In this document: piece after piece, positions 6,781-10,482 of the stretch
How the letters are laid out: each line of letters opens with the position of its first letter
How positions within the stretch are numbered: position 1 is the first letter of the stretch
Assembly (NCBI GenBank): GCA_016936555.1
Contig: JAFGXR010000080.1
Coordinates: 1-64,000, forward strand
DNA from: Spirochaetales bacterium
Lineage (GTDB): Bacteria > Spirochaetota > Spirochaetia > DSM-2461
Length of the DNA stretch: 64,000 nucleotides
Direction: 5' to 3'
Program-made: the position numbers and the translations under genes
Notes under the pieces: generated by a model
The model's database searches: none
Told to the model about the DNA's origin: nothing
What the model saw: the letters and a program-made list of their open reading frames with translations, nothing else

Positions 6781-6874
6781 AAGAGATCGGGGAATTCACA
6801 AGCGCCGTGACCCTTTTTCTTGTATATGGAGTCGAGACTTGATAAAATTGGAGTATAGATTGGAAATTATCAGT

Positions 6875-7246
6875 ATGAAAGACGAAGAACTTCTGGCAAT
6901 TGGCGAATACGTAAAAAAGAACATCTCACGATGGATGGAAGAGAGTCAGATAATCCCCTTCAGAAATGACAGACGGGAAATAGATCTTGCCGAGAGAATC
7001 GTCCGGGTCGAAGAATCACTTAAGCACCAGGGAGAACTGCTGGAGAAATCCCTTGAGTTTATGGAAAAGCGGTTCGAGCTTATGGAAAAAAGATTTGAAC
7101 AGATCGATAAACGATTCGAGCAAGTCGACAAACGCTTTGAAGAGCTTCGCAGCGATATGGATAAACGTTTCAGCCAGCTCCAGTGGACAATGGGCCTTGG
7201 GTTTACCATAATGGCAGCCTTAATGGGAATATTCAATTTTTTCTGA
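6875..7246 (+). CDS. Bdr-like coiled-coil protein with C-terminal membrane anchor
   Basis: Function unknown. Residues about 40-100 form a coiled coil with repeated units MEKRFEL, MEKRFEQ, IDKRFEQ, VDKRFEE and MDKRFSQ at 7-residue spacing. One hydrophobic helix ends the chain (LGFTIMAALMGIFNFF). This architecture resembles Borrelia direct repeat (Bdr) proteins and DUF1640-type proteins: a cytoplasmic coil anchored in the inner membrane. The ATG at 6875 (MKDEELL) is preferred. An in-frame TTG at 6839 would add 12 residues, and neither has a strong ribosome site. Confidence 0.7.
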   Translation: MKDEELLAIGEYVKKNISRWMEESQIIPFRNDRREIDLAERIVRVEESLKHQGELLEKSLEFMEKRFELMEKRFEQIDKRFEQVDKRFEELRSDMDKRFSQLQWTMGLGFTIMAALMGIFNFF

Positions 7247-7284: not shown

Positions 7285-7971
7285 ATGTCTCACGTTTTCA
7301 TAATAGACAGCGATGATGAAATCCGGGAAACCGTAGCGGGATACCTGAGGCTCTGGGAATTTGAAGTGACGGAGTACAGGGATCTGACCGGCGTCAAGGA
7401 CGGATTGAAATCCCGTAAACCGGACATCCTTATAATAGAGACGACCTTTGAAGAAGGCGACGGTTTTACCTTTATAAAGGAAATCCGCCAGAAATCGGAT
7501 ATACCGATCATCATTATATCCAGAAGGAATACCGAATCAGACCGCATAACGGGATTTGAAGTCGGTGCCGACGATTACCTGGTCAAACCTTTCTCCACCA
7601 AAGAGCTGGCTTTGCGAGTCATTGCCATTCTGAGAAGAATGAGTTGCTACATCCAGGCTGAAAGAGACAAAAAATGGAATCTGGGCGGAAATATACTCTC
7701 TACCGATGAAAATGCCCACAAAGCCATGTTGAACGGAACGACCCTGAAGCTCACCACGGCGGAGTGGAAAATCCTCATATATCTGACATCGAACGGTGGG
7801 GCCGTCGTTTCCCGGGAGCAGATTCTGGACCGCTGTCTGGAGTACTCCTTTGAGGGCTACGACAGAACCGTGGACACCCATATTAAAAATTTACGATCCA
7901 AACTGATCGATCCCCACTGGATAGAAACGGTCAGGGGTTACGGCTACCGTTTTGCCGGTACGGAAAAATGA
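7285..7971 (+). CDS. OmpR/PhoB-family regulator with atypical receiver (Glu at phosphosite)
   Basis: DNA-binding response regulator of 228 residues: receiver at about 1-120 and winged-helix domain at about 130-225 (LTTAEWKILIYL, VVSREQILDRC, VDTHIKNLRSKL and the terminal VRGYGYRF are typical). In the receiver the phosphoacceptor position, normally the Asp in LLDxxMP, is Glu52 (ILIIETTF), and the second acidic-pocket residue is Ser9 (IIDSDDE). Lys101 (LVKPF) and the Ser of IIIISRR are kept. Glu can mimic phosphorylated Asp, so the protein may be constitutively active or regulated otherwise. No histidine kinase is nearby. The next gene has phased direct repeats of the kind bound by this family. 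Confidence 0.88.
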   Translation: MSHVFIIDSDDEIRETVAGYLRLWEFEVTEYRDLTGVKDGLKSRKPDILIIETTFEEGDGFTFIKEIRQKSDIPIIIISRRNTESDRITGFEVGADDYLVKPFSTKELALRVIAILRRMSCYIQAERDKKWNLGGNILSTDENAHKAMLNGTTLKLTTAEWKILIYLTSNGGAVVSREQILDRCLEYSFEGYDRTVDTHIKNLRSKLIDPHWIETVRGYGYRFAGTEK

Positions 7972-8066
7972 AAAATTTATTGCTGCAAATAAAAAAGGGT
8001 AATAAAATAAGCAAAGATAAGGGTTATAAAGTACAGAAAGCACAATAAAGCCGCAGAAAAACCTTA

Positions 8067-8106
8067 CTCACCCCACGCTCACACTTTCTTCACACAATCT
8101 TCACAT
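8067..8106 (+). promoter_or_regulatory. Phased direct repeats, upstream cluster (OmpR/PhoB-type)
   Basis: CTCACC (8067), CTCACA (8078), TTCACA (8089) and TTCACA (8100) recur every 11 bp. Tandem 6-bp units at 11-bp spacing are the standard binding layout of PhoB/OmpR-family dimers. Confidence 0.65.
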
Positions 8107-8285
8107 ATTTATAATTTAAAATTACAGATTATTTACCTCTGTCATATTAAAATAGATATAGAGAAACTTTTACCTGCGCCCTCTCTGTTATTGACAGGCA
8201 GTTCACAGGGGAACCAGTTTTGGCGAAGAGCAGGATGCTGAAAAAGTTTCTCACGTTACAAAAAAAAGTGAACTTTTTTAATCCC

Positions 8286-8313
8286 TTCACACAATCTTCA
8301 CATTACATTCATA
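8286..8313 (+). promoter_or_regulatory. Phased direct repeats, downstream cluster (OmpR/PhoB-type)
   Basis: TTCACA (8286), TTCACA (8297) and TTCATA (8308) recur every 11 bp. The 18 bases 8286-8303 are identical to 8089-8106 of the upstream cluster. It lies about 85-110 bp before the start codon, suitable for activation. Confidence 0.65.
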
Positions 8314-8397
8314 GTTTCAACACAAAGTAGCCGTAACATCGATATATCTAAATAAAGTTTACCGACCTACGTGTCGGGAAAATTAGGAGAGAAATAA

Positions 8398-10248
8398 ATG
8401 AAAAAAGCTTTAATGCTTGCTGCTGCTATCGCTGTGGTAGCTGCACCTGTTTTCGCTCAGGATGAGGCTCCCACTCTCGGTGGTCTTCACGGAGCATCCG
8501 GAAGCGTTGAGTTCAGCTTCGGCGATTCCGACATCGGAAACGACACTGGATTCGGTTTCGGAAGCGGAATCAAAGGATCTACTACAGGTTCTGTAACGGC
8601 TTCTATCGCAACTGAAAAAGTTGAAGCTGGTGCAACAATCAGCCTCGTTCCTTCAGTTGCTCTTAACGAAAATGACAACACTGTAGACACAGATGACATC
8701 AACCTTGCTGCTTACGATGCAGCAATCGAGTGGTACAAAACTGCTGAAGGTGACAACTACGGTCCCTTTACTGTAGAAATCGACTGGGAAGCTGAGATTT
8801 ACGCAGCACTTCAGGTTCAGGGTTTTACACTGGCTGAAGCACAGGCAATGTACACAGAAGATGATGGATGGGATATCGACGGTGATGATATTGCAGACGC
8901 AGCTGACTTTGCGGCTATAAAAACTGCTCTTAATTCTGCTATTCTTACTTCTATTACTGATGAAATTGATGCTCTGAATACTCTTACTGCGCCGTCCGCG
9001 TATACAGCTTATGGTTATACTGCGGCTTCCGCTGATGCAACAAGATATACAACAGAAATTATTGCTGGTGAAAAAGTGCTTTTCTTAAATGGTGTTAACC
9101 AGAATACAGTTGTTACAGATGATGAAGCTGATGTCTTTACTGCAGTAAACGAAGCAACTGACGATTATACAGAAGCTTACGGCGGTGTTGACGGTGACGA
9201 TACTTATGACGTTACGTTCCCCGTTTCTGACGCTTACTTCAGACTTCTCGGTGTTGCCGGTGTTGTTGATGTTGAGTTCGAAGTTAACGGTAAAAACGTA
9301 ATGGTTGGAAGCAAATTCACTGAAGCTACAGATGACGATCCCCTCCACCTCGGTGTTGGTCTGGCTCTGACTTCCGGTGTTGTTGAAGGTCTTTCCGCTT
9401 CTATACTTTACACGAACTATCCTTCAGAAGCCGCTGATACAGATGACATTCTGACAATCGGTAGCGAAGCTGCTGATGCAGAAGACGCTGTAAACGCTAT
9501 TCAGGTTAATGCCGGATACGCAACAGATATGTTCAATGTAGCTGTTGATTTCGCACTTGCAAGCTTCTCTGACATTGACCCCTGGTTCTCTGTAAGAGGT
9601 GGAGTATCTCTTGCTGACCTCGCCGGCCTCGCTGCCAACGTAGAGTTCACAAAACAGAGCGCAGCTAACGGTATGGGTCTTGCAGCTGATGTAAGCGCTT
9701 CTATCCTCGGGATTTCTCCCTCTGTTGACTTCAGATACAACCTCGAAGGTGATACAACTACAGACACAACTACACTTGGTGTAGATTCTGACGACACAAC
9801 TGGCGACGGAACAGCTCTTGATTACTTCAAATCTGTTCTTACAAGCGGTGGTTACCTCGGAATCGGTCTTTCTGTAGATTTCGCTGAAATCATGGGCATG
9901 AGCCTCATCACTCTTGATGGTGGATTCGCAATGGTATTCGGTGGAGACAATGACTGGAACGTAGGTCTTGGTCTTGACTTTACAGAGCTTTTCGCTCCTG
10001 TAACACTCGACGCCGGATTCAGCTCAACTTACGATGCAGTAAGAGCATGGGACGTAGCACTTGGTGCTGAGTTCTTCGGTGTAACAGCTAAAGTTGGACT
10101 CGGTGATGACCTCGGCGATGCCGACACTCACCTGCTCTTCAACGCCGGACTCGGATACACTTATGACGCAGTTGCTCTTTCCGCAGATTTCGGAATCGAT
10201 GCTGACAACGTTAAGTCTCTGATGTTCAAAGCTAAAACTTCTTTCTAA
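8398..10248 (+). CDS. Major outer-membrane beta-barrel-like protein with acidic insertion
   Basis: Exported protein with a clear signal peptide (MKKALMLAAAIAVVAAPVFAQ) and no lipobox. The C-terminus ends in Phe (FKAKTSF), and alternating polar/hydrophobic strands (VNAGYATDMFNVAVDFAL, AGLGYTYDAVALSADFGI) are typical of outer-membrane barrels. Codon choice is strongly biased in the flanks, suggesting high expression. Residues about 92-280 are different: rich in Ala, Asp, Thr and Tyr, very acidic, with looser AT-ending codons (about 8700-9230). That looks like a large inserted surface loop. A good ribosome site precedes the start and a strong terminator follows. A porin role is an inference; no named family was recognised. 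Confidence 0.75.
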   Translation: MKKALMLAAAIAVVAAPVFAQDEAPTLGGLHGASGSVEFSFGDSDIGNDTGFGFGSGIKGSTTGSVTASIATEKVEAGATISLVPSVALNENDNTVDTDDINLAAYDAAIEWYKTAEGDNYGPFTVEIDWEAEIYAALQVQGFTLAEAQAMYTEDDGWDIDGDDIADAADFAAIKTALNSAILTSITDEIDALNTLTAPSAYTAYGYTAASADATRYTTEIIAGEKVLFLNGVNQNTVVTDDEADVFTAVNEATDDYTEAYGGVDGDDTYDVTFPVSDAYFRLLGVAGVVDVEFEVNGKNVMVGSKFTEATDDDPLHLGVGLALTSGVVEGLSASILYTNYPSEAADTDDILTIGSEAADAEDAVNAIQVNAGYATDMFNVAVDFALASFSDIDPWFSVRGGVSLADLAGLAANVEFTKQSAANGMGLAADVSASILGISPSVDFRYNLEGDTTTDTTTLGVDSDDTTGDGTALDYFKSVLTSGGYLGIGLSVDFAEIMGMSLITLDGGFAMVFGGDNDWNVGLGLDFTELFAPVTLDAGFSSTYDAVRAWDVALGAEFFGVTAKVGLGDDLGDADTHLLFNAGLGYTYDAVALSADFGIDADNVKSLMFKAKTSF

Positions 10249-10286
10249 TCAGTAACCAGTTTACGAACTTAGTTTGAGTTAACAAC

Positions 10287-10315
10287 AGACCGCCTTTCGG
10301 GGCGGTCTTTTTTTC
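10287..10315 (+). terminator. Intrinsic terminator of the outer-membrane protein gene
   Basis: AGACCGCC (10287-10294), loop TTTCGG, GGCGGTCT (10301-10308) followed by a T-run. Confidence 0.92.
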
Positions 10316-10482
10316 ATCCAGTATTTCGGATTATTTTTGATATACCTTTGAATTTCAACCAAACCTTCATCTTTGAATAGTGTCCGGCAATAATAAGACC
10401 TATGCCACTTGAACCCTGCAAATCCAGCCTGGTGAATCCGTTTAGACGAAGTTGTTTTAAATGCACCGATTCAATCATTCCC

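Follow-up and report, generated by a model that had tools for sequence, protein, structure and literature searches.

The window (the whole 64-kb stretch of DNA analysed) contains a porin-type gene preceded by two arrays of TTCACA-like direct repeats, with an OmpR/PhoB-family response regulator gene adjoining them upstream. The best explanation, to which we give a probability of about 70%, is that both are activator arrays of the PhoB/CreB type, bound by that regulator and driving the porin-type gene, and that the regulator, with its Glu52, is probably largely constitutive. The features are as follows.

7285–7971, + strand: OmpR/PhoB-family response regulator, 228 aa, with Glu52 at the phospho-acceptor position and no kinase gene after it.
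8067–8105, + strand: distal array, CTCACC-N5-CTCACA-N5-TTCACA-N5-TTCACA, 11-bp pitch (sequence, shuffles and same-genus comparison).
8110–8115, + strand: TATAAT, putative second promoter 4 bp past the distal array, also in G002.
8286–8324, + strand: proximal array, TTCACA-N5-TTCACA-N5-TTCATA-N5-AACACA, 11-bp pitch, predicted regulator binding site (two dimers).
8334–8339, + strand: -10-like hexamer TAACAT, 9 bp past unit 4, without a good -35.
8362–8377, + strand: hairpin CCGACCTACGTGTCGG in the 5′-UTR, between the predicted transcription start and the ribosome site.
8385–8389, + strand: Shine-Dalgarno AGGAG (sequence).
8398–10248, + strand: 616-aa exported protein, predicted outer-membrane barrel (signal peptide common to relatives, C-terminal Phe, relatives are porins).

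A sequence-only reading of this DNA had placed repeat units at 8067, 8078, 8089 and 8100 and again at 8286, 8297 and 8308, always 11 bp apart, and all seven are found there (CTCACC, CTCACA, TTCACA and TTCACA in the distal group; TTCACA, TTCACA and TTCATA in the proximal group), with an exact TTCACA in just four. An additional proximal unit (AACACA, 8319–8324) gives a 4+4 layout, both arrays having four units at 11-bp pitch. The two arrays do share an identical stretch, although it is 19 bp long (8088–8106 and 8285–8303) and not the 18 bases (8089–8106 and 8286–8303) first reported. Similarly, the 197-bp distance from which cooperative binding or looping had been suggested exists as a shift that pairs distal units 3–4 with proximal units 1–2, but it is in the wrong register as an array spacing; the arrays are offset by 219 bp. 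Cooperation or looping is possible. Directly upstream of the proximal array there is an A-tract/T-tract inverted repeat, AAAAAAGTGAACTTTTTT (8262–8279), the centre of which is GTTCAC in G002, i.e. the reverse complement.

Among the four-unit TTCACA arrays with 11-bp pitch that the 64-kb window contains, the distal and proximal arrays are the two best (3/24 mismatches each), and none of 60 dinucleotide shuffles of the window contains any four-unit array with three or fewer mismatches. Other pitches (6–10 and 12–23 bp) yield no comparable TTCACA arrays in the window. A profile of the proximal promoters, searched over the whole 4.73-Mb genome (G000), gives a single strong match (E=4e-14), which lies at this locus; up to E=10 just one other match appears, the distal array.

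The window's genus (g1) comprises G000, G001, G002 and a fourth species, G003. Regulator orthologues are present in 19 of the 26 genomes of the family, and an exported-protein gene lies downstream of the regulator locus in G000–G002, in six genomes of g4 and in four of g2 (G004, G009, G019 and G023), which provide the 13 promoters compared. All 13, from three genera, have four units at 11-bp pitch, a 9-bp gap and a TAnnnT hexamer with no insertions or deletions, and the CA core is invariant in each of the four proximal units. This comparison is partly circular in that the best window was picked for each promoter, and two independent checks were therefore made, one with a whole-genome profile and one with a unit matrix from other genera.

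The profile covers 57 bp of the proximal promoters, was built with G003 left out, and was searched over 26 whole genomes. In each of 14 genomes, which belong to three genera, it has a single strong match, always before a porin-type gene, and finds the proximal element of the held-out G003 at E=3e-8, also before a porin-type gene; all remaining matches within the family are at E=0.01 or weaker. The unit matrix was made solely from other genera and identifies a distal four-unit array in all four species of the window's genus, lying 219, 218, 209 and 218 bp ahead of the proximal one (shuffles as good: at most 1/2000). An array at the distal position is absent in g4 and g2; weaker arrays are situated 73–84 bp upstream in three g4 genomes (G022, G018 and G020). 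This comparison covers genomes other than G011 and G004, whose upstream sequences are too short for a verdict, and G024 and G041, in which the contig breaks off too soon. By sequence comparison, then, the proximal array is common to other genera and the distal array specific to the window's genus. Lack of conservation in orthologous promoters had been named beforehand as evidence against control by the repeats, and the repeats are conserved there. TTCACA is a short motif with two-unit versions elsewhere in the genome, but given the shuffles, the fixed spacing and the conservation over three genera, the last of which already refutes it, an origin as chance or functionless low-complexity repeats can for practical purposes be dismissed.

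In genus g5 (L074, L075 and L086) the gene after the regulator orthologue encodes a membrane protein, with neither an adjoining porin nor a strong box, so the target of the regulator must differ there. In G003 (L191, contig C439) both arrays and the porin are kept, and the upstream neighbour encodes a 356-aa exported protein, not the regulator.

The prediction of the promoter itself is made from conservation; generic sigma-70 and terminator scans of 7950–8450 give nothing above chance. The T, the A and the final T at the TAACAT position are invariant across 13 genomes, and the spacing to unit 4 is always 9 bp; this arrangement of 11-bp direct repeats upstream of a -10-like hexamer bears out the PhoB/OmpR-family site geometry proposed by the sequence-only reading. 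A leader hairpin is present in all eight sequences folded, with stems of 5–8 bp, differing sequences and z-scores of -0.8 to -3.3, which suggests a stabilising 5′ stem-loop; Rfam has no matches in the region around 7900–8600.

The regulator was correctly assigned from sequence to the OmpR/PhoB family, as its two Pfam domains, Response_reg at 75 bits and Trans_reg_C at 82 bits, both score over cut-off. The best NCBIfam match is CreB (161.4 bits, cut-off 273); PhoB (153.5 bits, cut-off 296) and CseB are also among the best matches, OmpR scores 109.3 bits (cut-off 331), and the closest solved structures are BaeR, RegX3 and Mycobacterium tuberculosis PhoP. Every curated cut-off is missed, so that an identity as CreB, PhoB or OmpR cannot be claimed for it. 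An ORF at 6839–7246, between trpS and the regulator, encodes a coiled-coil-like product with a C-terminal hydrophobic stretch; G002 has no counterpart listed there, and its DNA does not align at that place.

Several known systems resemble this locus in part. OmpR/EnvZ is a two-component system that controls the porins ompF and ompC through proximal and remote sites, and the present locus is similar in having a two-component regulator, a porin-type target and both classes of site; it differs in the OmpR score, the half-site and the loss of the kinase. Osmotic control of the OmpR kind, one of the two conditions offered by the sequence-only reading, gets no support from that score. The pho box array occupies the -35 region directly upstream of the -10, as the proximal array does here. 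Pho boxes also consist of two 11-nt direct repeat units (PMC4415409), and together with the match of the PhoB model to the regulator this would accord with a PhoE-like, PhoB-controlled porin induced by phosphate starvation, the other condition offered. However, the pho box consensus is CTGTCAT and serves a phosphate regulon, the PhoB cut-off is missed here, the partner kinase is absent, and no further site occurs in the genome up to E=10 and therefore no regulon; phosphate control is very improbable and was dropped on account of the missed cut-off and the lack of other genomic sites.

The closest likeness is to the cre/blr tag, TTCAC-N6-TTCAC, which lies upstream of creD and is bound by CreB/BlrA (PMC4689548); the sequence-only reading does not mention it. 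The half-site and the 11-bp pitch are the same, the tag itself can be read at 8089–8104 and 8286–8301, and the Stenotrophomonas maltophilia version, TTCACACTCGCTTCAA, is nearly the same string as the proximal units of related genera. CreB differs in that the score here is under its cut-off, there are four units and not two, the target is a porin and not creD, and the genus has no kinase; the creC/creD neighbourhood is absent at the locus, where the neighbours are trpS and the porin-type gene, with a kinase in sister genera. M. tuberculosis PhoP also recognises a TCACA core in an 11-bp direct repeat, binding as a tandem head-to-tail dimer with strict spacing, and such tandem dimers have been solved on TCACAGC-N4-TCACAGC (PMC4832192), but PhoP governs a large regulon, whereas there is one strong target per genome here. 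By analogy, the arrays would work on the principle of the cre/blr tag and the pho box, with a regulator that scores below the cut-offs for CreB, PhoB and OmpR.

In g4 and in G009, G019 and G023 the regulator gene is followed first by a histidine kinase gene and then by the porin gene, and in most of these genomes trpS lies upstream. The kinase is gone from the locus in G000, G001 and G002, and a search of all four genomes of the window's genus found no kinase orthologue (best 25–30% identity). At the phospho-acceptor position, residue 52, the three regulators found in the genus (G000, G001 and G002) all carry Glu in place of Asp, and the 16 other regulators examined carry Asp; G000 and G002 additionally have Ser at one acidic-pocket position. 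The sequence of G004, which has lost the adjacent kinase and kept Asp52, shows that such a loss is possible with Asp retained. The DNA-binding domains of the window-genus regulators are 83–84% identical to those of g4 and g2, and their receivers are 53–66% identical, versus 72–75% between g4, g2 and g5. In five of the six g4 genomes (G006, G022, G018, G020 and G015) the regulator gene is itself preceded by an array with 11-bp pitch (shuffles as good: at most 5/1000), probably reflecting autoregulation; in the window's genus autoregulation was considered and set aside, as no array lies upstream of the regulator gene.

OmpR-family regulators with a pseudo-receiver (e.g. HP1043 and ChxR) likewise have no partner kinase and a replaced phospho-Asp (here Glu52 in G000, G001 and G002), with Glu described as the commonest replacement (PMC12632262). 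The present case differs in that kinase-bearing orthologues with an intact Asp occupy the same locus in sister genera, which opens the two states to comparison.

The downstream gene is of the outer-membrane porin type, in keeping with the outer-membrane protein named in the sequence-only reading, and its relatives are porins by fold and Pfam. The G006 orthologue matches Pfam Porin_4 (35 bits, cut-off 27), and its model (pLDDT 68, pTM 0.64) is all-strand with about 18 strands and finds matches in OmpC, Campylobacter MOMP and further porins (E about 1e-10); TM-scores are only about 0.5, which makes this porin model a rough one. The 616-aa protein of the window itself can be aligned with its relatives only at the signal peptide and over roughly the first 40 residues, shares the C-terminal Phe, has no Pfam match and gives a single-sequence model with pLDDT 33; it is predicted to be an outer-membrane barrel. 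G000 and G002 have regulators that are 90% identical and, from 8280 to the start codon, DNA that is about 98% identical versus 75–87% in flanking aligned blocks. The similarity ends just past the signal peptide and returns at 10480 (differing span 8460–10480), and neither genome contains the porin type of the other elsewhere. On these alignments, the barrel body appears to have been replaced, or to have diverged beyond recognition, behind a kept promoter, leader and signal peptide.

Binding of both arrays by the adjoining regulator is predicted from sequence, and by analogy to PhoP the binding would be by tandem dimers. The arrays might instead be bound by another regulator, such as the 38%-identical paralogue G000:C27:123907, their linkage to the 7285 regulator being historical. 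Two observations that count against the best explanation point this way: the paralogue lies beside a look-alike two-unit motif, and therefore another protein could bind the arrays, and G003 keeps its arrays with a different adjoining gene and no regulator detected in its 88%-complete assembly. Moreover, several genes for small exported or membrane proteins, one of them adjoining the paralogue, have TTTACATTTGCTTCACA-type sites with the same 11-bp pitch in front of them. Set against this, linkage of the arrays to the 7285 regulator holds across three genera and 13 genomes, conservation of its DNA-binding domain is high, and genomes without it, except G003, have no strong box, and we regard a different binding protein as unlikely. 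The TTTACATTTGCTTCACA-type pairs are located 33–95 bp before their genes in G000 (L206 on C14, L207 on C45, L208 on C77 and L210 on C27), one of these genes being followed by a paralogous regulator-kinase pair, and likely constitute a second regulon.

With the adjoining regulator as the binding protein, two tandem dimers would occupy the proximal array (8286–8324), where they would stand in for a -35 element, and would activate a promoter of the sigma-70 type, with the -10 at 8334–8339 and a predicted start near 8346, for the gene at 8398. Related genera have an ordinary two-component circuit of kinase, regulator and porin, to which g4 usually adds a weaker array ahead of the regulator gene. 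The window's genus has lost the kinase, has Glu for Asp52, lacks an array ahead of the regulator gene and has a second four-unit array ~219 bp upstream of the first. Through Glu52 the regulator would be largely constitutive and independent of phosphorylation, and the distal array would set the output through cooperative or looped contact or a second promoter.

Two readings concern the role of the distal array alone, and the data do not separate looping or cooperation from a second promoter; tandem promoters are as possible as looping. In the first, the distal array drives a promoter of its own, with either the TATAAT at 8110 or an AT-rich hexamer 9 bp past the array as -10, and gives a longer porin transcript. 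The distal arrays of the four species share the four-unit build and stand 9 bp from TTTAAA, TTTAAA, TATCTT or TAATTT, and the perfect TATAAT lies 4 bp past the array in G000, with TTATAATTTAAAATTACA kept in G002. However, the 9-bp-spaced hexamers of G000 and G002 are poor -10s, and the offset of the arrays varies by about one helical turn (209 versus 218–219 bp), which suits phased contact too; we consider a distal promoter a real possibility at somewhat less than even odds. The second reading, which we hold only tentatively, makes the distal array a looping or repression site acting in cis on the proximal promoter, comparable to the remote site of Escherichia coli ompF. The porin target and an offset kept at about 20–21 helical turns in four species agree with it, but these are four data points, and with the weak g4 arrays of G022, G018 and G020 at just 73–84 bp the offset is no family rule.

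The window-genus regulator may be stuck 'on', although G000 and G002 lack one acidic-pocket residue and G004 keeps Asp52 after losing its adjacent kinase, both of which count against a constitutive reading. In many regulators, though not in every one, Glu acts as a partial mimic (PMC12632262), and a creB(D55E) change left creD unraised in Stenotrophomonas (PMC4689548). We put forward, as less likely than not, the broader proposal of a 'locked-on' two-component porin switch, in which the kinase was deleted, Asp gave way to Glu, autoregulation disappeared and an additional operator arose, so that output would be set by operator architecture alone, with exchanged porin bodies. No published reports on this locus were found in the open-access literature.

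Pseudo-receiver regulators are common, and how they arise and stay controlled is an open question (PMC12632262). Here kinase-controlled and kinase-less states of one regulator are found in sister genera at the same locus, in front of one shared target and with operators that are almost alike. The pair allows a direct test of whether Asp-to-Glu replaces a lost kinase, the comparison of the genera may show what the added operator compensates for, and the arrays give this group a precisely defined candidate operator for controlling a porin. If the 'locked-on' proposal is true, the locus would represent a natural conversion of a two-component switch, in which a promoter-leader-signal-peptide cassette carries exchanged porin bodies.
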